In this document: one piece after another, positions 42,238 through 54,944 of the stretch
Layout: each line of letters begins with the position of its first letter
Position numbering within the stretch: the stretch's first letter is position 1
NCBI RefSeq assembly: GCF_001465345.1
Contig: NZ_CP013655.1
Span: 1,035,791-1,099,790 of the forward strand
DNA length: 64,000 nucleotides
Direction: 5' to 3'
From: Enterococcus rotai
GTDB taxonomy: Bacteria; Bacillota; Bacilli; Lactobacillales; Enterococcaceae
The notes under the pieces: generated by a model
Seen by the model: the letters and a program-made list of their open reading frames with translations, nothing else
What the model was told of the DNA's origin: nothing
Database searches by the model: none
Translations under genes and position numbers: made by a program

Positions 42238-42933
42238 TTAGAAACTGGCTAGTTTGTGCAGCGGTAAAATTCTCATCTCAACCGTCCCAATAATGTCTTT
42301 TTCATCCACTAAACCATAGTAACGGGAATCTGTGGAATACGGTCGATTATCTCCTAAAACTAAATATTTACCTCTTGGAATAGTAGCATATTTTACATTT
42401 GGCAATTGTTGTAACTGAAAATCATCCGTTACTAATTCTTCATTTTGTTTGGCGTGATTCAACTGATTCTGTAAAAAACGTTCAACAGTTTCTTGGTGAT
42501 TGATATACAATTGATCATTTTTATATTGAATATGTTCATTGGGAAGACCTATCACTCGTCGAATGGATGTTTCTTGACTATTTGGTAACTTAAAATAGAT
42601 AAGTTTGAATCGCCTGATCGTGCCTAAACGATTCACAAAAACACGATCGCCGTTATTCAAGACAGGCGTCATCCCATACCCTTCTACTTTCGGTAAGGTA
42701 AAAATGGTTAATGAGAGGATCATGAAAAGAAACGATACGATAACCGTTGTTAAAAGTATTTCTTTCCAAAATTCTTTCATTGATTTTGATGTATTTTTTT
42801 TTATAGAAACACGCTTCTTTTTTGTTTTTACTATTTTTTCTTTAGTTGACTTTCTCCGAGTAACCTTTGATTGGGTGCTATCCTTTTTTTGTGGCTTTTT
42901 TTTCAATGTTTTTTTGTTTGACATCTTTATCAT
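42238..42933 (-). CDS. Signal peptidase I homologue lacking catalytic Ser and Lys
   Basis: 231 residues. A long Lys/Arg-rich cytoplasmic tail (1-~52), one membrane helix (58-80), then the S26 fold. At the position of the catalytic Ser the protein reads EGYGMTP: Gly87 instead of Ser. In the box normally VKRVIGLPGD it reads IRRVIGLPNE: Arg125 instead of the catalytic Lys. Other boxes (NNGDRVFVNR, GDNRPYSTDSRYYG at 194-207) are kept. Both catalytic residues are thus lost while the fold is conserved. Streptococcus pyogenes SipA, a pilus-assembly factor, shows the same kind of loss. A non-proteolytic assembly role in the WxL system is inferred. Met4 is an alternative start. Confidence 0.85.
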   Translation of the reverse strand: MIKMSNKKTLKKKPQKKDSTQSKVTRRKSTKEKIVKTKKKRVSIKKNTSKSMKEFWKEILLTTVIVSFLFMILSLTIFTLPKVEGYGMTPVLNNGDRVFVNRLGTIRRFKLIYFKLPNSQETSIRRVIGLPNEHIQYKNDQLYINHQETVERFLQNQLNHAKQNEELVTDDFQLQQLPNVKYATIPRGKYLVLGDNRPYSTDSRYYGLVDEKDIIGTVEMRILPLHKLASF

Positions 42934-42937
42934 CCAC

Positions 42938-43603
42938 TTACTTTTTTTGCTGTAATGCCTGCTCGTTGACTTTGAAGTAGTCGATAATTTTCGTTTGCGT
43001 CACTTGAGTCTTTTGGATTACACTAATATATTCTTCACGCGTTTGTGGGTTTTCGATCATTTCACTACTTTGATTGTTCAAATTTAAACCAAGTTCTTTC
43101 ACTTGATTGTAATAACGTGTCAATAACCGCTGTCCTTCTGTTGTTAACCTGCCATCTGCCCCTCGCATTCCAAAACTAGATAGTTTTGCTGCTAATTCAC
43201 GTAAATTATTTTCAGCTTTCTCAGAATTATTATTTTCACTCAGCGAATTAATTTGATTAATCGTCTCATTGAGTAAGTAATATCCCTGAACAATGCCTTC
43301 TGAATCTCGTTCGCCTAAATTAGTTGCTTGATAATAGCGAGAATAAAAGGCTGTTGAACATAAGCAAAGAGCCAGGACAAAACAAACAATAACGTTACGT
43401 CGTTGTTTTTTTCGCTTTACAGTTGCTTTTTTTATTTTTCGTCTAATTTTTTTTCGTTTGCGTGTATTTTTTGTTTTTATACGTGACAACTGTCCCAATA
43501 GTTTTCCTGTTTTAAGTAGGCTAAAGAAACAAAATAAAGAAAACAATGCAAAGAGGATAGCTCCTGATAATGTAGCAATAAATACCCAGTCTAGTAATAG
43601 CAT
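42938..43603 (-). CDS. WxL-operon membrane protein of unknown function
   Basis: 221 residues, strong AGGAGG. Membrane segment at about 5-30, a very basic loop (TRKRKKIRRKIKKATVKRKKQRR, read in two parts as TRKRKKIRRKIKK and ATVKRKKQRR) at ~46-70, a second segment ~71-86, and an external helical domain of ~130 residues without cysteines. No family recognised. It is tightly packed between the DUF916 gene and the inactive signal peptidase gene, so it likely works with them in anchoring or assembling the WxL proteins. Confidence 0.75.
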   Translation of the reverse strand: MLLLDWVFIATLSGAILFALFSLFCFFSLLKTGKLLGQLSRIKTKNTRKRKKIRRKIKKATVKRKKQRRNVIVCFVLALCLCSTAFYSRYYQATNLGERDSEGIVQGYYLLNETINQINSLSENNNSEKAENNLRELAAKLSSFGMRGADGRLTTEGQRLLTRYYNQVKELGLNLNNQSSEMIENPQTREEYISVIQKTQVTQTKIIDYFKVNEQALQQKK

Positions 43604-43625
43604 TTTTCTATCCTCCTATAAACGC

Positions 43626-44708
43626 TTAACGTTTCTTGCCTTTAGAGACTCTTTTTTTATTTTTAGTATTCTTTTTTTTATTTTTATTCATTGTTCGAAC
43701 AATGAAATAGATAATCAAAATTACAATCAATACTCCAAAGATAATCAGTAGAATCAGTTGCCAATTAATTCGGTTTTCTTGTAATAAGCTGACATCTTCC
43801 TGATTAAACTTATCTGCTTCTTCGTTACTGATTGTAAACTTCTGCTCCCATTCCCACTTTTCACCTGTTTTTGCTGTAACCAATACATGTGCTCGATAAT
43901 CGCCTGGCACCATTTTCTCACCGTTCATTGATACAGGAAACTTTATTTTAGAATTGGGTGCCATACGCATTTTTGTTTGCTTTGTATCATACAAAACTTC
44001 ATCTGATTTTGCGCCCATTACTTGAACATCCACCGTCATATCATCTAAATAAGCAGATTGTGTATTAGAAAAATCAATCATGATCGCGTTACGATAATTT
44101 TTTAAATCTGCATACACCTTATTTAATTTCAAGTCTGGTTTAACTTCTCTATCCGTTTCAGTCAGCAACATTCCAACTAAATAAGCATATTTATTTTTAA
44201 TCATGCCTTCTTGCTTTTCAGATTCCTGATCTCGTTCAATCATGTAAATACCACCAGAAATAACACCATCATATGTAGCTTCTGGCATCGTAATATCAAT
44301 AGGATAATCAACTGTTTGCTTTGGTGGAATCACGACAGATTCTTTTCCTTTCACAATATCTGCAAAATCATATTTTAGAGAGGAATCTTTTTCTAAGCTT
44401 GATGGTCCATTTTCTAATACACCATTGCTGTTTGTTTTTGTGCTGTTTAACCCTACATCTACGGTAACCTCTTTATCAGAGCTATTGCTTAATTGGATTA
44501 CAACCGTTTGTTTTTGACCTGGTGTCATTCTTAAGTCGAAGTAACTTGCTTCTTTATGTTGATTTTCTGGGTAGATTACTTTGTAGCTGAAACCACTGCT
44601 GGCAGCTTCTTCACTACTTTCATTTGCTGAAGCAGCATTCGGCCTACTGATCAGAGTAATCGCTATGTAAAAAATAATAGTAATATAGGCTAAAAATTTT
44701 TTATTCAT
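43626..44708 (-). CDS. DUF916/DUF3324 cell-surface protein (WxL peptidoglycan- and host-binding domains)
   Basis: 360 residues from ATG 44708 (GTG three codons upstream is too close to AAGGA). Signal peptide, then the DUF916 domain (FSYKVIYPENQ... YFDLRMTPGQKQTVVIQLSN), DUF3324 (NKYAYLVGMLLTETD... PDLKLNKVYADLKNYRNAI), a membrane helix at ~318-343 and a very basic cytoplasmic tail. Members hold WxL proteins at the wall and appear once per WxL operon. Confidence 0.93.
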   Translation of the reverse strand: MNKKFLAYITIIFYIAITLISRPNAASANESSEEAASSGFSYKVIYPENQHKEASYFDLRMTPGQKQTVVIQLSNSSDKEVTVDVGLNSTKTNSNGVLENGPSSLEKDSSLKYDFADIVKGKESVVIPPKQTVDYPIDITMPEATYDGVISGGIYMIERDQESEKQEGMIKNKYAYLVGMLLTETDREVKPDLKLNKVYADLKNYRNAIMIDFSNTQSAYLDDMTVDVQVMGAKSDEVLYDTKQTKMRMAPNSKIKFPVSMNGEKMVPGDYRAHVLVTAKTGEKWEWEQKFTISNEEADKFNQEDVSLLQENRINWQLILLIIFGVLIVILIIYFIVRTMNKNKKKNTKNKKRVSKGKKR

Positions 44709-44798
44709 TCTTTTCACGTTCCTTCTTTCAAAGTGAACAGGATCACCATTATTACTTTTTGATGATCCTGCTCAAACTTACTTTTATGCTAATTTATA

Positions 44799-45566
44799 TT
44801 AGCGTGCGTCAGCGATTGTCCAAGTAATTGTTGATGTATATTCACTAGCTGTTGATAATTTGTTATTTGCAGCTGGAATAGAAAGTTTTACAGATTTATC
44901 TGCATTTCCGTCTGCCATTTTACCAAAGACTAAATCAAAACGACCAAATCCTTTATCATCTGCATCTTGATTTACAAATTCAGTAGGAGTCGTTCCATCT
45001 GTTGCTAATACTTGCGTTTTTGCTGCAGCTGTTGGATTAATTTGGCCTGCATCACCTGTTGTTGTTAAGCGAATGTTATCGTAGGTAAGTGTTGCGGCTT
45101 TTAATTCTTTTCCAGCTGTATTTTTGAATGTTGTTGCTTTTGCAGTTAATTTATATTTATTGGGAAGATCATCTGCACGTTCATCTTTAAACGTCACAAA
45201 GTTAGGCATTTCTACAGTATTATCTGCATTATCTTTCTCAGTTGTTTTAAATGTGCTCGCATAGTATTCCCAACCGTTAGCCGTTGGCGTTGTTACTTCG
45301 TTTGTACCAAAATCAAGTGGTGCAATTGATACAACTTTCAATGGGCCATTATCTGGGTTTACTGGTGGTTCTGTAATTTCAGGTCCATCTGTTTCAGGCG
45401 GTGTAACAGTATCTGTTCCAGTACCATCTTGTTTGAATTTAATTTTACCCGTTGAAGAACTTACTTTTGCATCTCCTCCGTCGGCTTTTGCTACTGATGG
45501 TAACGCTAGTCCTACTCCGATTACTGTTAATAATGCTGCTCCGCATAATTTGTGTGTCAATTTCAT
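44799..45566 (-). CDS. WxL-domain surface protein
   Basis: 255 residues, RBS AGGAGG. Signal peptide cleaved after ...PSVAKA (about 28). Residues ~75-255 form the WxL domain: PLDFGTNEV, an N-terminal motif position reading KYKLTAK rather than WxL, and a C-terminal YTSTITWTIADAR. WxL domains bind peptidoglycan non-covalently. The first Trp is lost and the second is WTI. Downstream of it lies the DUF916 gene of the same operon. Confidence 0.92.
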   Translation of the reverse strand: MKLTHKLCGAALLTVIGVGLALPSVAKADGGDAKVSSSTGKIKFKQDGTGTDTVTPPETDGPEITEPPVNPDNGPLKVVSIAPLDFGTNEVTTPTANGWEYYASTFKTTEKDNADNTVEMPNFVTFKDERADDLPNKYKLTAKATTFKNTAGKELKAATLTYDNIRLTTTGDAGQINPTAAAKTQVLATDGTTPTEFVNQDADDKGFGRFDLVFGKMADGNADKSVKLSIPAANNKLSTASEYTSTITWTIADAR

Positions 45567-45596
45567 TCTTGTTTCCTCCTAGGATTTGTTTTAAAT

Positions 45597-46394
45597 TTAT
45601 GGCAACTCGGATAATACCCAAGTTAACACCGTTTCATATTGTACTGGGTCTTTTTTTGTTTTCCCTGGTACGGTTAAAGAGACTGCATTATTTTGATAGA
45701 TTGGCTGATTATTAAAATCAGGATCAAGGATAGGCTGTCCATTTTGATCAATTCTCGGACTGAGTGTGTCTTTGCGTCCTTGTTGGTTATCAATGGTTGC
45801 CCCAAAAATAATTGACCACGTTCCTTCACCTGCCCCAGCTTTTGCTTGTGCCAAGTCGTAAGTTTCGCCAATATTATTAATGTGAATAACCTCTTTTGAC
45901 ACAGTCGGCGCAAAGCTGCTGTCATTAATCGAATTTGTCCACGATTGATCCAATGAAATAACGGCACCTTTTAATTCTTTATTTTTGGTTGTCTCATTTT
46001 TCAACTGTGTTTCTTGTCGGACTTGTAAGGTCCATCCGCTTTTATTTTCACGGTAATCGGATATTTGAACAAAATTCCCTCTTGCACCTGTTCCGTCAAG
46101 AAATAGTTGTGCATTTGCAAAATACGTTTGATCTTTGTCTGAAACTTCATTGCTCCAAAAGTTTAACTTAGGAACAAAATCAAACCTCAGTGGCCCCTCG
46201 GTTGTTGGCGTTGCACCTGGATCAGCAGCCTTATCAGGATGTTCTGGGTCAACAATTTCTTTAGGATACTCACCTGTAAACTTCACTGTACCGCTGCCAG
46301 AGTAACTAGTTGTTTCAGCAGATACACTTAATGATTTAATACTTGTTACTACCATCGCTACAACAATAAGGATAAAAATGCGTTGTTTTTTCAT
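45597..46394 (-). CDS. WxL-domain surface protein
   Basis: 265 residues with signal peptide (to about residue 26, SVSA). A short Pro/Asp-rich region is followed by a WxL domain with both canonical motifs: SGWTLQVRQ near 120 and the C-terminal LTWVLSELP. Secreted, wall-associated; second WxL protein of the operon, 30 bases before the next one. The two WxL proteins share domain type but little sequence, so they are not recent duplicates. Confidence 0.93.
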   Translation of the reverse strand: MKKQRIFILIVVAMVVTSIKSLSVSAETTSYSGSGTVKFTGEYPKEIVDPEHPDKAADPGATPTTEGPLRFDFVPKLNFWSNEVSDKDQTYFANAQLFLDGTGARGNFVQISDYRENKSGWTLQVRQETQLKNETTKNKELKGAVISLDQSWTNSINDSSFAPTVSKEVIHINNIGETYDLAQAKAGAGEGTWSIIFGATIDNQQGRKDTLSPRIDQNGQPILDPDFNNQPIYQNNAVSLTVPGKTKKDPVQYETVLTWVLSELP

Positions 46395-46399
46395 TGATT

Positions 46400-46753
46400 T
46401 TAACGCTCCCTTCTTGCTGATTTTTTTTCCTTTTTCTTTCGTAAAAAAAGAATTAAGACTAAAATAACCAAGATCAAACCACTAATACTTAAACTAGTTT
46501 TGACAAGTTCACCCGTTGAGGGATATCTGCCTTTTGGTTTCGTGACAACTTCTGACTTACTCGTGACCGTCGTTGCAGTTGTATTCGTTGTATTACTTTC
46601 GCTTTCTGAGGTACTAGCTTCATAAAATCCCACGCCAGCTTTTGTTTGTATTTGTCCTATTTCTTCAGCATAAACAGTTGAAAAAGTAGTTAAGCAGAAA
46701 CTTAAGCATAAAATAGAGACAAATAAGAAACGATTTTTTACGATTTTCTTCAT
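46400..46753 (-). CDS. Small sortase-type surface protein with a YPSTG motif
   Basis: 117 residues. Signal peptide ending TVYA (about 29), a Ser/Thr-rich stretch (STSESESNTTNTTATTVTSK), then a sorting signal: GRYPSTGE, hydrophobic helix, RKKKEKKSARRER tail. The motif has Tyr where LPXTG has Leu, so anchoring efficiency or sortase choice may differ. WxL operons usually contain one such short LPXTG protein; its function is unknown. Six bases precede the next gene. Confidence 0.88.
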   Translation of the reverse strand: MKKIVKNRFLFVSILCLSFCLTTFSTVYAEEIGQIQTKAGVGFYEASTSESESNTTNTTATTVTSKSEVVTKPKGRYPSTGELVKTSLSISGLILVILVLILFLRKKKEKKSARRER

Positions 46754-46772: not shown

Positions 46773-49700
46773 TTAATATGCTTCTTCTACTCGCCAAATC
46801 AATGTGGTTTCGTATTCTCCAGTCAACTTCACTGCACCAGAAGGGACATCTAGTCGAAGGCCTTGTTTATCTGGTCCCCAAGTTCTTGTGGAGATATCGT
46901 ATTGTCCTGAAGCATCGTGTTTTGTCTGAAGCACATCTTGTGCATCAGTCGATAGTACTTTCTTATCTGAAGCTGTTTGATAGCTTAAAACACCACTTAG
47001 TACATGCGCCGGACTATCTGGCATACTTAGTTCATCTTCAAGTTTTACAGATAACTTCCAGTTATCTAGATTCTTTCTATTATCCCAAATCACTAAAGGT
47101 TGATCGTAAGATGGATTATTATCTTTTGTTCCTTTCCAGCTGACCTCGTGACTGCCAAAATTAATTTCTGTTGGACCAGAATAAATTGACAACGTACCTT
47201 GGAACGTATAAGTGATTGTAGATTCTTCTGTTCCAATAGGCACGGCAGTTTCATTCGTTGGACGTCCAGAATTTTCTAGCAGATAGCGGTCTGCAAGAAC
47301 AGAGTTAATTGCGTCTGTCACCAATTTTTCTTTTGTTAAGTCTATCGTAGAACCTACATTTCCTTTTAAGGTAACATTGTCATGCAAGCTTCCACCTGAT
47401 TCATCAACAAATTGAACTTTGACCGTTTGTTCTGAGAGTTTGACCGTAACCTGAATCACTTTTGTGATATCTGTTGCCAAACCAGAGTCTGCGGCTTTGA
47501 CAGTAAGAACGACTGGATACGTCCCACTCGTCTTGCTTGGAGACAAACCAGCTAAGTCAGTAACTTGAACCTTATCTGTTAAATCTGTATATACGCCATC
47601 TACTATTTTATGGGAAGAAACGTTACTCTGTGATAAAATTTGTGCTTTTAGCTGTGCCTCTGTCATATCCTTAATCGTTTTCGTCTCTAAAGTGATATCT
47701 TGTGCATCAATACCATTTGTTGTTTCATGTACGATTAGCTTAGACGTAACAACTGTTTCGTTTTTCGCATCATCCATTACAATGACTTTAACCTCATGTT
47801 CGCCAACAGTATTAACAAGCGTATCAATTTCACCCAGTGTTTCTGCAGTATATTTATAGGTAAAATTTTGTATCACTGGATTAGTATCTGTGGGATTTTG
47901 AACGAATACACTTGGATTCGGTGTGGTATCTCCTTTTCCAAGATGATACTCTTTAGGCTCTCCCTTTGGTGGTGTGACGTCTAAAACAACTTGGGTTGCA
48001 GTATCTGTTTTACCATCTAAAAAGGAGTAAGCTGTAATGGTTGTTCCTGCTGAAAAATGTTTTCCTTCCGGCAATGTATAGGAATAATTACCAGAAGCAT
48101 CTGCCTGAACAGTAAAATTGTCTGAATATAAGGGATCTTGTCCTGAACTTGTTACTGGGCTTTTCACACTATTTTTAGCTGGATCAATCAATACTCCGAC
48201 ACTATCGACAATTGGTTTATCTGATAACCTGACATATGCACCTGGATTGGTTGTTCCACTGATTGTTGTTGAATCTGTTGAAGAGATATCATCTGTTGCT
48301 TTGCTCAAAATACTGACACTAACATCAGGAATATACTCATACAAAACACGTTGAACATTTTTAGTTGTAAATCCAGTCGTTGAATTTTTAAAGCTCGCTT
48401 CATTTGCCGTCGTTAGAGAAGAGGCTTTTGTGATAGTGGGATTAATTTCGCTATAGTTGATCAGCATGCCATACATTGGTGTCCAACTTCTATTAGGCGA
48501 ACCGTCCAAAACTCCTCTATTCCAGATGTTAACTTTTTGGATATCAACATCTAGCTTTCCAAGGGTTCCTCCAATACGAATCAAGCCTGAATCACCTGCG
48601 TTCATTACAGCTGTTCGTTGTAAGTTAACTCGTAAAGCATCCGCAAATTGGAAAGTTGATCCTTGCGTCGCAAAGCGAATTAGACTTTGAGCTGGATTGG
48701 TACTGTCGCTTGAAATATTGAAAGTCCCTTTTTTATTTACTTTAAACGTTGCATCACCGCTAGCATAAATAATATCCGTTTCAGAGTTGCCCATGCTTGT
48801 TGCCTCTATATTTAAGGCTCCTTCTTCATCAACAATCAATGACGATCCGCCACCCATAGAAATAATACTTCTAGTATCACCAGATCCTCCAGAAGTACGT
48901 CCATCTGATTTAATATTTAGGGCCGCTTTTTTGCCGATTGTTAATTTGGAATTTGCTGAATAAAGATCCAATGAACCCCAATCTGTTTTTCCTTTTGGAG
49001 AATTTAGATTTAAGGTCGCTCCTTCATTCAGCGTAACATTACCATTCGCTACATATAAATTTTGTCCGTACGCTTCTCCCCAATCATTTGATGGTCCCGT
49101 TGTGACGGTCATCGTTGAGTTCTTATCTAAAACCAATGATCCACCATTCATCAACCATATATTTCCAGAATTGATTGTGTTACTTTTAAAAGTGGCATTT
49201 TCCATTAAAGTCAAATTGGATATCTCTAAATTTGCTTGACCCAATGCATTGATTTGCCAATTTGTCCGAAATGGAGACGTGTAGTATTGTGTCATATTAT
49301 TCTCAACAGTACCTGACATATATACTTGTGCGTATGGGGAATGGAGTAATTCTGAACCTGTATCCTTGAGGTTATGGAATGTTAGTTTAGACAGTCTCTG
49401 ATTGTCGGCACTTAAATCTACATAGCTAGTAAATCCATAATAGTTTCCATGGTAAGCAGTTAAGTTTTGCCAAGTAATATCCCAACCATTTGTTCCAGTC
49501 ACTGTGTTGTTATAAAAACCAATCATTAATGATCTGAAATCGATTGTATTATTATTGCCCTCTATAACTAATTTTCTAGCAATCCCAGTTCTAGTCATGT
49601 ACCTAAAGTTAGCAGTAGCATTGGCATTCGATGTTGCACCAGCGCTTATAGAATTTAATGTACCGCTGATACTAGGATCGTCAGGCGTTTCAAACGACTT

Positions 49701-49943
49701 AGTAATACTTATCGCTTTGACACTAGTATCATCTATAGCACGAATCAGTTGCTCCCAGCTTTGTACTTCTCTTATTTCATTACCAGTAAATTGTGTTAAG
49801 TCAACTTCTCCAGTTGCTACGTTTCCTTCAGTAGTTTGTATATCTTCTGCTTTGATTAATGACTGTTTACCTAAAAATCCCAATAGAACAATCATTCCCA
49901 AGAAGATAATTCCTAAGAAAAAAGACTTTTTTCCGATTTTCAT
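46773..49943 (-). CDS. Large WxL-domain beta-helix adhesin
   Basis: 1056 residues, first gene of the operon (RBS AAAGGAGAGGAG). Signal peptide at 1-~32. Residues ~55-540 read as a right-handed parallel beta-helix, with repeated short strands such as LVIEGNNNTIDFRS, GSLVLDKNSTMTV and SSLIVDEEGALNIEA. Ig-like/bacterial adhesion modules follow (~545-660, 660-740, 740-840) and a MucBP-like piece (~840-910). The C-terminal WxL domain has NWKLSVKLEDE and LIWRVEEAY, a WRV variant. A wall-bound adhesin is likely; ligand unknown. Confidence 0.9.
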   Translation of the reverse strand: MKIGKKSFFLGIIFLGMIVLLGFLGKQSLIKAEDIQTTEGNVATGEVDLTQFTGNEIREVQSWEQLIRAIDDTSVKAISITKSFETPDDPSISGTLNSISAGATSNANATANFRYMTRTGIARKLVIEGNNNTIDFRSLMIGFYNNTVTGTNGWDITWQNLTAYHGNYYGFTSYVDLSADNQRLSKLTFHNLKDTGSELLHSPYAQVYMSGTVENNMTQYYTSPFRTNWQINALGQANLEISNLTLMENATFKSNTINSGNIWLMNGGSLVLDKNSTMTVTTGPSNDWGEAYGQNLYVANGNVTLNEGATLNLNSPKGKTDWGSLDLYSANSKLTIGKKAALNIKSDGRTSGGSGDTRSIISMGGGSSLIVDEEGALNIEATSMGNSETDIIYASGDATFKVNKKGTFNISSDSTNPAQSLIRFATQGSTFQFADALRVNLQRTAVMNAGDSGLIRIGGTLGKLDVDIQKVNIWNRGVLDGSPNRSWTPMYGMLINYSEINPTITKASSLTTANEASFKNSTTGFTTKNVQRVLYEYIPDVSVSILSKATDDISSTDSTTISGTTNPGAYVRLSDKPIVDSVGVLIDPAKNSVKSPVTSSGQDPLYSDNFTVQADASGNYSYTLPEGKHFSAGTTITAYSFLDGKTDTATQVVLDVTPPKGEPKEYHLGKGDTTPNPSVFVQNPTDTNPVIQNFTYKYTAETLGEIDTLVNTVGEHEVKVIVMDDAKNETVVTSKLIVHETTNGIDAQDITLETKTIKDMTEAQLKAQILSQSNVSSHKIVDGVYTDLTDKVQVTDLAGLSPSKTSGTYPVVLTVKAADSGLATDITKVIQVTVKLSEQTVKVQFVDESGGSLHDNVTLKGNVGSTIDLTKEKLVTDAINSVLADRYLLENSGRPTNETAVPIGTEESTITYTFQGTLSIYSGPTEINFGSHEVSWKGTKDNNPSYDQPLVIWDNRKNLDNWKLSVKLEDELSMPDSPAHVLSGVLSYQTASDKKVLSTDAQDVLQTKHDASGQYDISTRTWGPDKQGLRLDVPSGAVKLTGEYETTLIWRVEEAY

Positions 49944-50270: not shown

Positions 50271-50981
50271 TCAAATATCCAGCATGTAGCCTTTTGAACG
50301 AACTGTTTTAATATAGGTATGTGACTCGTTATGTTCATCTAACTTTTGGCGCAAATGGAATATCAAGTTACTTATACGATATTTTTTGTAATTTTCATTA
50401 TTTGTCTTTTTCCATACTTCGTTTAGAATTTCTTCATATGTAACCGTCGTCTTACTATGTTTGTAAAGTATTTCTAGTATTTTAAACTCTTGTTTCGTCA
50501 AATAAATCTCTTCTTCATCGCCCAAAAGCACACTAAGGTTCTGGGGAATTAATTTAAACGATGCCCCATTCTTTTTCTTTTTTGAGAAACTTTTGCTGAA
50601 AAAAATTTGTTCTTTCATTTCACCCTTCACAGTACATAAGTTGTTTGAAATAATTAATGCAACTTCATCCAAATTATTAGAGCTATCAAATACCATATTA
50701 GCTCCCAATTCAAGAAATAGTGTACGTTCACTATTTTCTTTTACTTCAGAAAGAATCCATAAAAACTTAGTCGTCTTCTTGCGTATTTCTATCAACAATC
50801 TAAATATCGTTGTACTGCTCAAAATATCATTTTTTTTTATTAAAATAGCATCCAATTCATTTAAGTGACTCACAATATCTTCTTTTTCAAAACATGTTAA
50901 TGAAAGTTCATGATTGTTAAAACTCTTTATTAGTTTACCTTCCTCATCTTTGGGCAAAGATACATAGCCGATTTTGTACAT
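50271..50981 (-). CDS. Atypical winged-helix regulator of the WxL operon
   Basis: 236 residues from ATG 50981 with AAGGAAGAATT before it. C-terminal OmpR-type DNA-binding domain (~135-236): IYLTKQEFKILEILYKHSKTTVTYEEILNEVW and KYRISNLIFHLRQKLDE...RSKGYML. The N-terminal half resembles a receiver fold but lacks the acidic pocket; where the phospho-Asp belongs it reads AILIKKND. It is therefore probably not phosphorylated. Position directly upstream of the WxL operon, and downstream of the invertible segment, suggests it activates the operon. Confidence 0.82.
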   Translation of the reverse strand: MYKIGYVSLPKDEEGKLIKSFNNHELSLTCFEKEDIVSHLNELDAILIKKNDILSSTTIFRLLIEIRKKTTKFLWILSEVKENSERTLFLELGANMVFDSSNNLDEVALIISNNLCTVKGEMKEQIFFSKSFSKKKKNGASFKLIPQNLSVLLGDEEEIYLTKQEFKILEILYKHSKTTVTYEEILNEVWKKTNNENYKKYRISNLIFHLRQKLDEHNESHTYIKTVRSKGYMLDI

Positions 50982-51053
50982 TTTTAATTCTTCCTTTCTG
51001 ATATCAATCAACAAATTCTCTTCTACAACACATTTCTAGTTTGCACATAAATA

Positions 51054-51108
51054 AACAGTTAAAATACTGTTATTAATGGTTCGAACCCTCTATAATGAAA
51101 ATTATAGA
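51054..51108. promoter_or_regulatory. Three short palindromes upstream of the WxL regulator
   Basis: AACAGT-N6-ACTGTT (51054-51071), GGTTCGAACC (51078-51087) and TCTATAAT-GAAA-ATTATAGA (51089-51108). The last contains a minus-strand -10 TATAAT (51101-51106) but no good -35. Possible operator cluster with a weak promoter. Confidence 0.45.
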
Positions 51109-51159: not shown

Positions 51160-51193
51160 TTTATTTCTTATTTCTACGACAAATAAGAAATAA
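51160..51193 (-). repeat. Recombination site, left (inverted repeat IR-L)
   Basis: 34 bases; internally TTATTTCTTATTT, core CTACGAC, AAATAAGAAATAA: 13-bp perfect palindromic arms around a 7-bp asymmetric core. The whole 34 bases recur as exact reverse complement at 52617-52650. Confidence 0.9.
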
Positions 51194-51270
51194 AGTGGGA
51201 TTATTGTTCTACACGACACTTATCTCTTTTTTTGACCATTTCTTTGACGGAGTTATTTAGGTAATACATG

Positions 51271-52389
51271 CTATTGAGCTTTCAGAAATAAATGATCTAT
51301 TGCTGTGATAGCGTTTATCCTGTTTTCTAACAATGAATCAGCATATGTATCCAGAGTCAATTTAATTGAATGATGTCCTAATATTTGGCTCAAGCTCGCT
51401 ATGTCTACTCCTTGTTCCAAACAACGTGTGGCAAAGGTATGTCTTAAAGAATGGAAACGAATGTCTGGAAGTTCTAGTTTATTAACAACTTTTTTAAATC
51501 GATAATTTATCGTTCGTGGCTCCGTTAATCCACCATTACAACAAATCACATACGGCCCTGAAGAATATTTTTGTTTTTCCAGTAAATAGTTTCTAAGGTT
51601 TTCCGCCATAGGAATTATTCGGGCTGAATGATCCGATTTTGGAGAACCTGCTATTACTATGGTTTTTGTTAGTGTTGTACTTTCATTGGTTATTCGGGTG
51701 ATTGTTCTTCTTACTTGAATCAAATTCTTATCAAAGTCAATATCTTCCCATTTTAGACCACTAATTTCTCCAATTCTCATACCTGAATATAATGCTAAAA
51801 AAACAGGGGAGCATTTCTTTTCTGTTAAAGCCAACATTTCAATTTTTCTCTGCTCTTCTAATGTAAGTGCATTTATTTTTTTTGTTGTAGTTTTGGGAAG
51901 AACGATATTGTCACATGGGTTTTGAAGTAAATATCTTTGTTTTACAGCTGAGTTTAAGGTTTTCTTTAAAATATTGAATATATTTTTGATCGTACCAGAA
52001 GCAAAATTCTGCTCAGCAAGGTGATAGACAAACTCTTGAATCGTATCCTGTGTGAGTTTTTGAACTTTTATATCACCTAATTTCGGTAAAATATGACGTT
52101 TGATCAGCCTAGTATAATTTGAGTATGTCGTAGGTTTCACAGTATATCTCATCGTTGTCATCATCCAATTTCCAATGAATTCCTCAAATGTCTCATTATA
52201 ACTAGCAACAGAACAATTGGAGGTAAGGTATCTAGCTTTGACAAATGTTAGCTTTTCTTTTACTTCTGAATACTGTTTGCCATAGATGGAACCATAAATT
52301 ATTTTTTTTTCTGGTGTTCGTTGTTTAATATACCTCCCCTCCCAACGACCATCTTTTCTTTTATAAATATTTTCACCTTTTCTTACCAT
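51271..52389 (-). CDS. Tyrosine site-specific recombinase
   Basis: 372 residues from ATG 52389 (AAAGGA ten bases before; GENIYKRKDGRWEGRY right after it is the usual start). A TTG at 52455 is in frame but lacks support. N-terminal arm-type DNA-binding domain (1-~55), SAM-like core-binding domain (~65-155), catalytic domain with Arg205 (SGMRIGE), Lys251, His313 and Arg316 (HSLRHTF), His339 (LGHH) and nucleophile Tyr349. All catalytic residues are present, so it should be active. It lies inside the 34-bp inverted repeats; no excisionase or phage genes accompany it. Confidence 0.93.
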   Translation of the reverse strand: MVRKGENIYKRKDGRWEGRYIKQRTPEKKIIYGSIYGKQYSEVKEKLTFVKARYLTSNCSVASYNETFEEFIGNWMMTTMRYTVKPTTYSNYTRLIKRHILPKLGDIKVQKLTQDTIQEFVYHLAEQNFASGTIKNIFNILKKTLNSAVKQRYLLQNPCDNIVLPKTTTKKINALTLEEQRKIEMLALTEKKCSPVFLALYSGMRIGEISGLKWEDIDFDKNLIQVRRTITRITNESTTLTKTIVIAGSPKSDHSARIIPMAENLRNYLLEKQKYSSGPYVICCNGGLTEPRTINYRFKKVVNKLELPDIRFHSLRHTFATRCLEQGVDIASLSQILGHHSIKLTLDTYADSLLENRINAITAIDHLFLKAQ

Positions 52390-52526
52390 AGTAAATTGAT
52401 CCTTTCTTGACGATTTTTTTGACGGCTTATCAAAAGATAATTCGATTCCTTTCAAAAAAATTTCTAAAAAAATGTTTTTTTCTCATTTTTTTTAATCTTT
52501 TTTAAAATATTAGATAAAAACGATTA

Positions 52527-52555
52527 TTGACTTTAAGAGATTTCTCAGTTAATAT
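52527..52555 (+). promoter_or_regulatory. Outward promoter inside the invertible segment
   Basis: TTGACT (52527-52532), 17-base spacer, TAATAT (52550-52555), reading right toward IR-R where only the 3' end of an opposite gene lies. After inversion it would read through IR-L into the regulator gene at 50981. Confidence 0.6.
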
Positions 52556-52616
52556 AAATACAAATTTAATTTAATAGATAAATTTAAGTTATTTTTCACA
52601 AATTAATCATTATTTC

Positions 52617-52650
52617 TTATTTCTTATTTGTCGTAGAAATAAGAAATAAA
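52617..52650 (+). repeat. Recombination site, right (inverted repeat IR-R)
   Basis: Exact reverse complement of 51160-51193: arms TTATTTCTTATTT and AAATAAGAAATAA around GTCGTAG. An extra TTATTTC unit precedes it on the left. Confidence 0.9.
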
Positions 52651-52909: not shown

Positions 52910-54256
52910 TTAATTGAGAGGTGGTTCTGCTATACTTATTTTGGTAACAAACAATCCTTCTTCTTGAATTTCAATTGTCAAAGTATACGGAGAATTAGCC
53001 AGCATTGTTTCAACCAGATAAATGCCTAATCCAGTACCACTTATCGAACTAAACGTTGCAAAGGGTTCTCCAATTAATTGCAAGTCAATGTTATTATGTC
53101 CGGATATTTTATTTTTAATCGCTAGGCTATTTTCGGTGACTTTTATGAATATAATACTATCTTCTAATGTATAATTAATTGCATTACTGATTAAATTAGA
53201 AAAAACTTTTTCAATAATTTTTCTGTCTAGTTCCATAAAAAAATCATTTATAAACTCACGGCAGACCGTCAGTTTTTTGTCCTCTAATAGTACATCATAG
53301 TGATGAATAACCTCATTGATGATTTCTATTGAAGACTGTTCTGACTGTTGACTAAGGTTATTTTTTTGACTGATAAATAATATTTCTCTAATTAATTGGT
53401 CTAAATTATTGGTTTGATTATTGATTTCTATCAAAATATCTCGAGTATTTTGTGCTTGATTTAGATTTTCTAATTGATTAACCAATAATTTAGTAGACAT
53501 CAGGGGTGTTTTCATTTCATGTGTCATCCCTTTTAAAAGAGCAGAGTTGTTTGATTCCAGTTTTTTTACAAGTTGAACTTCTTTTTCTAGCTTATTTTGT
53601 GCATACTTTAATTCTGAATAAAGTTCTTTTACTTGTGATTCGATTTCTGCATATTCTTCTAATCTCAAATTTAAATTGAGGTCAACTATTTCATCATTTG
53701 ATACATTCATTTTGGTTAGATCAAATAAAATATCCAATTTTTTTCTTTCACGTTTAAATAAAGAAACATAGATAGTAATAATTACAGCTATACTAAAGGC
53801 AGCTAAAAATAAGACATATGGAACAGACTCCAATATTATATTGCTGATATCTGGAGGCGTTAATTGAATTGGATAACTTATATAAACGTTTAGATCATTC
53901 ACCTTAAATTGCGTAACAATTCCTCTCATAGGCACTAACAGCATATTGAAATCGTAGTTAAATGGTTCTGAATCATTTTGAGGATAAATAATTTTCCCAT
54001 TTGAGTTTGTAATGATTACTCGATAGCCATTAACAACAAAAGGCCTTAGATAGCTATAATCCTTATTAGTTTCAATAATTTCACGTATTTTTACAGTTGT
54101 TCCATCGAATATATCTTGTTGCTCTTTTTCTATTTCTTTCCCTAGATTCAATGTGATGACACCAATCACTATAAAAAATACGATAAAAGACATGATTATT
54201 GAAAGCAAAACGATAACTACTTTAGTTGGCCACTGGATTGGCTTATTCTTTTTCAA
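52910..54256 (-). CDS. Sensor histidine kinase
   Basis: About 448 residues. Start is uncertain: TTG 54256 has AAAGGAG twelve bases before it, while TTG 54268 touches that site. Two membrane helices (~10-35 and ~145-165) bracket an external domain of ~110 residues. Then come a coiled linker, HisKA with the H-box KGMTHEMKTPLM, N-box VFSNLISNAINYT and GTGLGIYLVE of the ATPase domain. Partner of the response regulator upstream, which it overlaps; transmembrane sensing of a cell-envelope or peptide signal is likely given the ABC transporter in the same direction. Confidence 0.9.
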   Translation of the reverse strand: MKKNKPIQWPTKVVIVLLSIIMSFIVFFIVIGVITLNLGKEIEKEQQDIFDGTTVKIREIIETNKDYSYLRPFVVNGYRVIITNSNGKIIYPQNDSEPFNYDFNMLLVPMRGIVTQFKVNDLNVYISYPIQLTPPDISNIILESVPYVLFLAAFSIAVIITIYVSLFKRERKKLDILFDLTKMNVSNDEIVDLNLNLRLEEYAEIESQVKELYSELKYAQNKLEKEVQLVKKLESNNSALLKGMTHEMKTPLMSTKLLVNQLENLNQAQNTRDILIEINNQTNNLDQLIREILFISQKNNLSQQSEQSSIEIINEVIHHYDVLLEDKKLTVCREFINDFFMELDRKIIEKVFSNLISNAINYTLEDSIIFIKVTENSLAIKNKISGHNNIDLQLIGEPFATFSSISGTGLGIYLVETMLANSPYTLTIEIQEEGLFVTKISIAEPPLN

Positions 54257-54911
54257 TTCGGTAGCCAACTCCTTTGAGCGTATCTATCAGATCTTTTCCC
54301 AATTTATTGCGTAGATTTTTAATATGGACATCAATCGTTCTGGAATCAACGTAGTAGTCGTATCCCCAAAGTGCCGTTAAAAATTCATCTCTAGAAAATA
54401 CTTTTCCTTGGTTTAATAACATAGCTTGCAGAATGTCAAATTCTTTTGCAGTCAATGTGATTCTTTCTCCATTTTTCTCTACAATATAGTTACCAATTTC
54501 AATCATAATATTTTTATAGCGTAGTTTTTTAACCGATTTTTGAGCATTTGACTCGATACGTCTCAATATAGCATCAATTTTTAAGAGTAATATATTTACA
54601 GAAAATGGCTTCACAACATAATCATAGATTTTTCGATTATAAAGATTGATTTGCGTAAATTCATCATTCAACGCACTGATAACAATTATAGGGATTTGAT
54701 GAATCTCTAACCTGTCCAAAAATTCTTCTCCGCTCATTTTAGGCAACATCAAATCGAGTAAAATTAAATCATAATTTTTTGATTCAAAAGAAACTAAGGC
54801 AGATTCTGCATCTGGAAAAGCGGACACATCATAGTTTTCTTTTTTTAAACTCAAGCATAAACCTTTTCTAATTTCATCTGTATCCTCTATTAGAAGAATT
54901 GATTTTTTCAT
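54243..54911 (-). CDS. OmpR-family response regulator
   Basis: 222 residues from ATG 54911 (GAGGTGAG). Receiver domain with acidic pocket LIEDTDE, phospho-Asp in YDLILLDLMLP (~residue 52), the Ser/Thr switch in IIVISAL and Lys in YVVKPFS. Winged-helix output with TLTAKEFDILQAMLLNQGKVFSRDEFLTALWG and the usual C-terminal VGYRIEKE. It follows the ABC ATPase gene by 33 bases and overlaps the kinase gene. Likely controls the adjacent ABC transporter. Confidence 0.93.
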   Translation of the reverse strand: MKKSILLIEDTDEIRKGLCLSLKKENYDVSAFPDAESALVSFESKNYDLILLDLMLPKMSGEEFLDRLEIHQIPIIVISALNDEFTQINLYNRKIYDYVVKPFSVNILLLKIDAILRRIESNAQKSVKKLRYKNIMIEIGNYIVEKNGERITLTAKEFDILQAMLLNQGKVFSRDEFLTALWGYDYYVDSRTIDVHIKNLRNKLGKDLIDTLKGVGYRIEKE

Positions 54912-54944
54912 AATTCTCACCTCTATTAAAGGATAGCAAATTAT

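Follow-up and report, generated by a model that had tools for sequence, protein, structure and literature searches.

The window, the whole 64,000-nt stretch of DNA that was analysed and in whose positions all coordinates are given, contains a compact cassette in which a single gene, encoding a tyrosine recombinase, is enclosed by two 34-nt sites that are 100% complementary, inverted with respect to each other and separated by 1,423 nt (Table 1). No cargo or excisionase gene lies between the sites in the window. On the left the cassette is bordered by an orphan winged-helix regulator, the presumed target of a switch, and by a WxL operon that comprises, besides its first gene for a large surface protein, genes for an LPXTG-anchored 117-aa protein, two WxL proteins, a WxL-interacting protein, a 221-aa protein without matches and a signal peptidase. 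A histidine kinase, a response regulator and an ABC transporter are the neighbours on the right. The cassette as read in the window is referred to below as being in the window orientation.

Table 1. Positions of the cassette, its presumed target genes and the associated sequence elements in the window
Feature	Position	Strand	Remarks
Rest of WxL operon	42238..46753	-	same strand as large surface protein
Large surface protein	46773..49943	-	1056 aa; first gene of WxL operon; pectate-lyase-like adhesive, MucBP and WxL domains
Winged-helix (Trans_reg_C) orphan regulator	50271..51014	-	presumed switch target; ATG near 50982
TATAAT between regulator and cassette	51091..51096	+	faces cassette
Left recombination site	51160..51193	.	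arms around 7-bp core CTACGAC
Candidate arm-type repeat pair	51232..51250	-	3' end of recombinase gene; CCGTCAA, then degenerate GGTCAA; family pattern
Tyrosine recombinase	51271..52389	-	372 aa from ATG at 52389; arm-like N-domain, SAM-like core-binding domain, catalytic domain
Candidate arm-type repeat pair	52407..52426	-	just upstream of recombinase start; GCCGTCAA ... CGTCAA; family pattern
Outward-facing promoter-like site	52527..52555	+	TTGACT-17-TAATAT, 9 of 12
Right recombination site	52617..52650	.	exact reverse complement of left site

In each site an asymmetric 7-nt core (CTACGAC on the left, GTCGTAG on the right) is framed by inverted arms. The perfect 34-bp inverted repeat described in an earlier, sequence-only reading of this DNA lies exactly where it had been placed and is unique in both the window and the genome: a search for the 13-7-13 pattern with up to three mismatches returned two places in the window, where 0 were expected from 100 shuffles, and two in the 3.75-Mb genome, in each case the cassette's own sites. 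The same reading had seen a 13-bp palindrome split by a 7-bp asymmetric core, a description that stands as to the inverted arms and the core and is refined at the left site, where the arm pairing reaches 14 nt. The right site carries on its inner side, at 52610-52629, an extra arm-like repeat (an overlapping second TTATTTCTTATTT) that the left site lacks.

The recombinase gene is an intact open reading frame (51271-52455, minus strand) with a likely start at 52389, and its product matches the Phage_integrase profile (PF00589) with E = 8e-24. The protein has a catalytic domain with the R-K-H-R-H/W-Y residues of tyrosine recombinases, as had been proposed for the sole gene between the sites; in an alignment with 53 sequences, residues R205, K251, H313, R316, H339 and Y349 (numbered from the 52389 start), which we take to be the six-residue catalytic set of these enzymes, occupy invariant columns. 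At the N-terminus an extra domain of three strands plus a helix is predicted, resembling an arm domain.

Of 105 genomes from the bacterial family, 37, including all 22 of the genus, encode relatives of the recombinase at E <= 1e-60, and the recombinase family is widespread and multi-copy. After identical copies were dropped, a step that also removed the window-like orientation of one assembly discussed below (L164 of G021), the 145 recombinase matches gave 136 distinct loci, which were picked by similarity to the window recombinase and are not a random sample. Inverted sites with a score of at least 17 were present at 97 of the 136 loci, compared with 14 of 1,768 mispaired controls. Counts of promoters and arm repeats refer to the 101 loci with a site score of at least 17 or to the 55 nonredundant loci among them, one of which (L147) has a mis-called start; alignment A1 covers 53 of the 55 (L147 and L166 being left out) and alignment A2 covers 34. 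The sites follow a common plan, with TTTCTTA-like arms and a short core, and vary in sequence between loci; a simple best-palindrome search across the 101 loci assigned a 7-bp core to 35 loci, a 5-bp core to 28 and a 9-bp core to 22. The window's genome encodes nine paralogues, eight of which have inverted sites (scores 19 to 34), all of different sequence; all eight cassettes are in the window-like orientation and are followed by a regulator, with WxL-profile matches near seven of them. Another genome (G004) holds three cassettes with nearly identical sites (L149, L150 and L151), which may cross-talk or may have been duplicated recently. Metagenome-assembled genomes of Lactobacillales and Oscillospiraceae also contain relatives that have both inverted sites and CGTCA repeats (L083, L093, L100 and L108), and the family therefore reaches beyond Enterococcus.

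GCCGTCA repeats lie inside both ends of the cassette, and this arrangement is a regular property of the family. On the recombinase strand, CGTCA occurs inside each end in 54 of the 55 nonredundant loci, compared with 2/55 and 5/55 just outside the ends, and the outermost of these candidate arm repeats keeps a near-fixed distance from the right site (median 58 bp, s.d. 4.0, for the 54 of 55 loci with a copy within 80 bp). The recombinase probably binds the repeats at both ends through its N-terminal domain, as the lambda and Tn916 integrases do. CCGTCA is missing at both ends in 19 of 31 loci with a site score under 15. One group of orthologous related recombinases at a conserved locus (L090, L092, L096, L101, L102, L105, L122, L127, L132, L163 and L169) lacks inverted sites (score 9 to 13); 10 of these 11 loci are without CCGTCA at either end. 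The repeat AGCCGTC, found at 52407-52426 of the window and in relatives, resembles the GCC box, the sequence bound by plant AP2 domains, possibly by coincidence; AP2 domains are also among the weak matches of a model of the recombinase N-domain.

The association with a regulator and with WxL genes extends well beyond the window. A winged-helix regulator, counted as adjacent when correctly oriented and less than 1,200 bp away, adjoins the cassette in 94 of the 136 loci, as judged with a profile that derives from the winged-helix half and picks up ordinary response regulators as well, among them the one at 54243-54920 of the window. Behind the regulator a WxL-profile gene follows on the same strand in 82 of the 94 loci; the other 12 are without one in the available sequence, which in five of them amounts to less than 4 kb. 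Good sites and the regulator go together, with an adjacent regulator in 87 of the 101 loci scoring at least 17 compared with 7 of the 35 without such sites. This genome context upholds the link between cassette and WxL operon first suggested from the window alone, and the regulator would be expected to drive the operon. In 92 of the 94 regulator-adjacent loci the recombinase gene points toward the regulator, and in two (G007 and G021) it points away; given this ratio, inversion may be rare or strongly biased. Next to a cassette on the E. raffinosus plasmid pCX012922 (L176), the place of the regulator and WxL genes is taken by a helix-turn-helix gene together with an accessory Sec operon (SecA2, SecY2, Asp1 and Asp2).

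Comparison of relatives supports inversion of the segment at this locus. The E. ureilyticus locus (L038) is collinear with the window, at 91.6% identity over 7,011 bp, and has its cassette in the window orientation, from which it follows that the window's species is close to E. ureilyticus. The recombinase, its right neighbours (histidine kinase, response regulator and ABC transporter) and its left neighbours (winged-helix regulator and WxL operon) occur together both in E. ureilyticus and in the congener G007. Both flanks of the G007 locus are collinear with the window, and the segment corresponding to 51163-52648 is reversed, at 84% identity over 1,494 bp, with the breakpoints in the sites.

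The strongest evidence for inversion within a strain concerns not the window's own strain but a relative, G021, whose cassette encodes a recombinase 60% identical to that of the window. This genome is assembled as one contig of 3,842,361 bases, whose two terminal 40.1-kb stretches overlap at about 99.9%, and the two overlap copies at the contig ends (L170-L175) hold the homologous cassette in opposite orientations, with 1,560 bp inverted. Turning one copy around between its sites yields the other, without further difference over 4,560 bp; because the half-sites differ at three positions, the crossover can be confined to 14 bp that contain the core, inside a 28-bp site. The overlap probably stems from a circular assembly left untrimmed, in which the cassette survived in both orientations; a true terminal duplication, the less likely alternative, would need a recent inversion as well. 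In a third genome (G013), one contig begins exactly at the left site. Across the site, an identical 70-bp inner end leads into the regulator flank in one contig and into a second, different flank in another. The second flank, whose genes had no match among the other collected loci, is likely the left neighbour of the cassette.

The flipping proposed by the sequence-only reading is thus borne out by an inverted orthologous locus, by both orientations within one assembly and by alternative junctions in another. That reading had named a single orientation in deep population sequencing and across relatives, or loss of the sites from loci that keep the recombinase, as observations that would speak against it; both orientations occur, between G007 and the window and within G021, in a comparison across relatives rather than within the window's strain, and the sites have been retained alongside the recombinase, as in every one of the six closest loci that were compared. 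The enzyme encoded by the cassette would act on the two oppositely oriented core sites and flip the 1.5-kb segment together with its own gene.

What inversion would change is the position of the outward-facing promoter-like site between the recombinase start and the right site. In the window this site is one of 24 such matches over 3.1 kb, compared with 16.1 (s.d. 3.6) in shuffled sequence, and both its -35 and its -10 hexamer are conserved throughout the six closest loci that were compared. With 9 of 12 positions it falls below the cut-off of at least 10 used for the family, so the window does not count towards the 23 of 55 nonredundant loci that have an outward promoter-like site in this interval, a number well above that from shuffles (mean 8.1, max 14); two of the 23 matches overlap arm repeats (L166 and L077). 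Strong matches, scoring at least 11, are found in 11 of 55 loci against a shuffle mean of 1.0 (max 4). The hexamer TTGAC[AT] occurs in the interval in 31 of 55 loci, compared with 15.4 in shuffles (max 23), and in 24 of the 31 the copy nearest the site begins 50 to 100 bp from it. A second promoter-like element lies on the regulator side, outside the cassette and facing it: TATAAT is present on this strand in 28 of 55 loci (shuffle mean 11.1, max 20) compared with 6 of 55 on the opposite strand, and full promoter matches on the cassette-facing strand number 14 of 55 (4.2, max 9). A -35 element is not enriched there (TTGAC[AT] in 7/55 against 6.5), and a test for regulator boxes in the regulator-side region was negative.

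These arrangements suggest how the cassette may work. In the window orientation the recombinase gene points to the regulator and the outward promoter reads away from it, against the end of the kinase gene, so that the regulator and the WxL operon are probably off. Inversion would bring the promoter upstream of the regulator, reading into it, and would turn the WxL surface operon on. That the cassette is a self-contained DNA inversion switch, off in the window orientation and on when inverted, is the reading we consider likely, and enterococci probably use such cassettes to turn surface proteins on and off, the switching of expression being read from the sequence. More speculatively, the regulator-side element could give rise to antisense RNA against the recombinase in the window orientation and to recombinase mRNA after inversion, favouring a return to off; a facing promoter that drives the recombinase in the on state and so shortens that state would explain the ratio of 92 to 2. 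A tentative extension, which we hold to be possible rather than probable, is a self-resetting pulse switch: when off, the recombinase would be silent or under antisense RNA, and when on, both regulator and recombinase would be under active promoters and each on event would be self-limiting, so that many modules, each with a core site of its own and all with arm sites in common, could give an independent, transient and combinatorial display of WxL proteins.

The same layout allows the polarity of the switch to be reversed: transcription running on from the recombinase gene would keep the regulator on in the window orientation, and inversion would turn it off. The recombinase and regulator genes share a direction in the 92 of 94 loci noted above, and the window showed no terminator-like site in the interval between the two, so that the regulator could be expressed by read-through in this orientation as well. 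Promoter-like sites leading into the recombinase slightly exceed shuffles in the nonredundant set (11/55 against a mean of 6.2, max 10), but the excess is small and is absent from the full set (17/101 against 12.6, max 18), strong sites show none (1/55 against 0.3, max 2), and the outward promoter is far more enriched, all of which makes this reversed polarity unlikely.

Two further explanations dispense with a programmed switch. The cassette could be a small self-inserting mobile element made up of a recombinase and terminal inverted repeats, and its wide, multi-copy distribution would fit, as would two E. raffinosus strains in which the L176 cassette is 78% identical between flanks of 98% and 91% identity; cassettes appear, from this comparison, to have been exchanged between strains. 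Yet placement is non-random, with 94 of 136 loci (a set chosen by recombinase similarity) abutting a winged-helix regulator rather than the scattered insertion places of an insertion element, no target duplication is visible by eye outside the sites, and inversion in place is seen in G007 and G021, so that self-insertion is a very improbable account. Even less credit can be given to the proposal that inversion is a by-product of general homologous recombination, without programmed function: inverted repeats can recombine in this way, but the matched site stretches are short (about 17 to 39 bp in the 101 loci), the G021 crossover fell within 14 bp around the core though the half-sites differ at three positions, and the recombinase gene is kept inside the sites. 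An inversion switch that is off in the window orientation thus remains the preferred reading.

Several elements of this reading have precedents. Recombinases are occasionally found within the invertible segment, with Hin named as an example (PMC5903667), a phage tyrosine invertase without an arm domain has been described (PMC6109161), and a recent gut-community survey reports site-specific integrase genes enriched near some inverton groups (PMC11892184); recombinases beside invertons are therefore not new as such. In that survey the median number of invertons per genome was 0 for Bacillus-like Firmicutes (PMC11892184), against which eight candidate switches in the window's genome stand out. 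Among the matches listed, mainly from open-access literature, none dealt with inversion in enterococcal surface loci or upstream of WxL operons, and none gave an earlier description of the cassette family. Phase variation of WxL operons, which serve enterococci as a surface-protein system, was likewise absent from the matches listed. Judged by sequence, the candidate new features are the outward promoter beside one site and the combination of GCCGTCA repeats inside both ends with an arm-domain-like N-terminus. Because the cassettes differ in core sequence and have an arm motif in common, the family may be a natural set of orthogonal invertases, and may offer a direct test of the passage from integrase to inversion switch.

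Set beside known systems, the cassette resembles a lambda/Tn916-type integrase turned invertase more than it resembles Cre-loxP. It differs from the Tn916/Tn1549 and lambda integrases in that the window cassette has no cargo or excisionase gene, and in place of directly repeated att sites around an excisable element its one gene is flanked by inverted sites, which lead to inversion rather than excision. The likeness to loxP and FRT drawn in the sequence-only reading holds for the inverted arms, the asymmetric core and the outcome of inverted sites, which is inversion; it does not extend to the core, of 7 bp here and 8 bp in Cre/loxP and Flp/FRT, nor to the predicted arm-like N-domain and candidate arm repeats, since those systems, with 13-bp arms in loxP, are not known to have arm repeats or an arm domain. 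FimB and FimE are tyrosine recombinases that control surface-related or other variable genes through inverted repeats, as are RecV of C. difficile and PsrA of S. pneumoniae. The recombinase genes of FimB/FimE, RecV and PsrA lie outside the flipped segment and their products are not known to have an arm domain, whereas the cassette gene lies inside the segment and the eight cassettes of the window's genome have eight different site sequences. In the Salmonella Hin flagellar switch an outward promoter drives the adjacent operon in one orientation. There too, the recombinase gene is inside an invertible segment between inverted sites (PMC5903667); Hin, however, is described as a serine recombinase with a Fis-bound enhancer (PMC3798978), whereas the cassette encodes a tyrosine recombinase, has candidate arm repeats and is present in many paralogous copies per genome.
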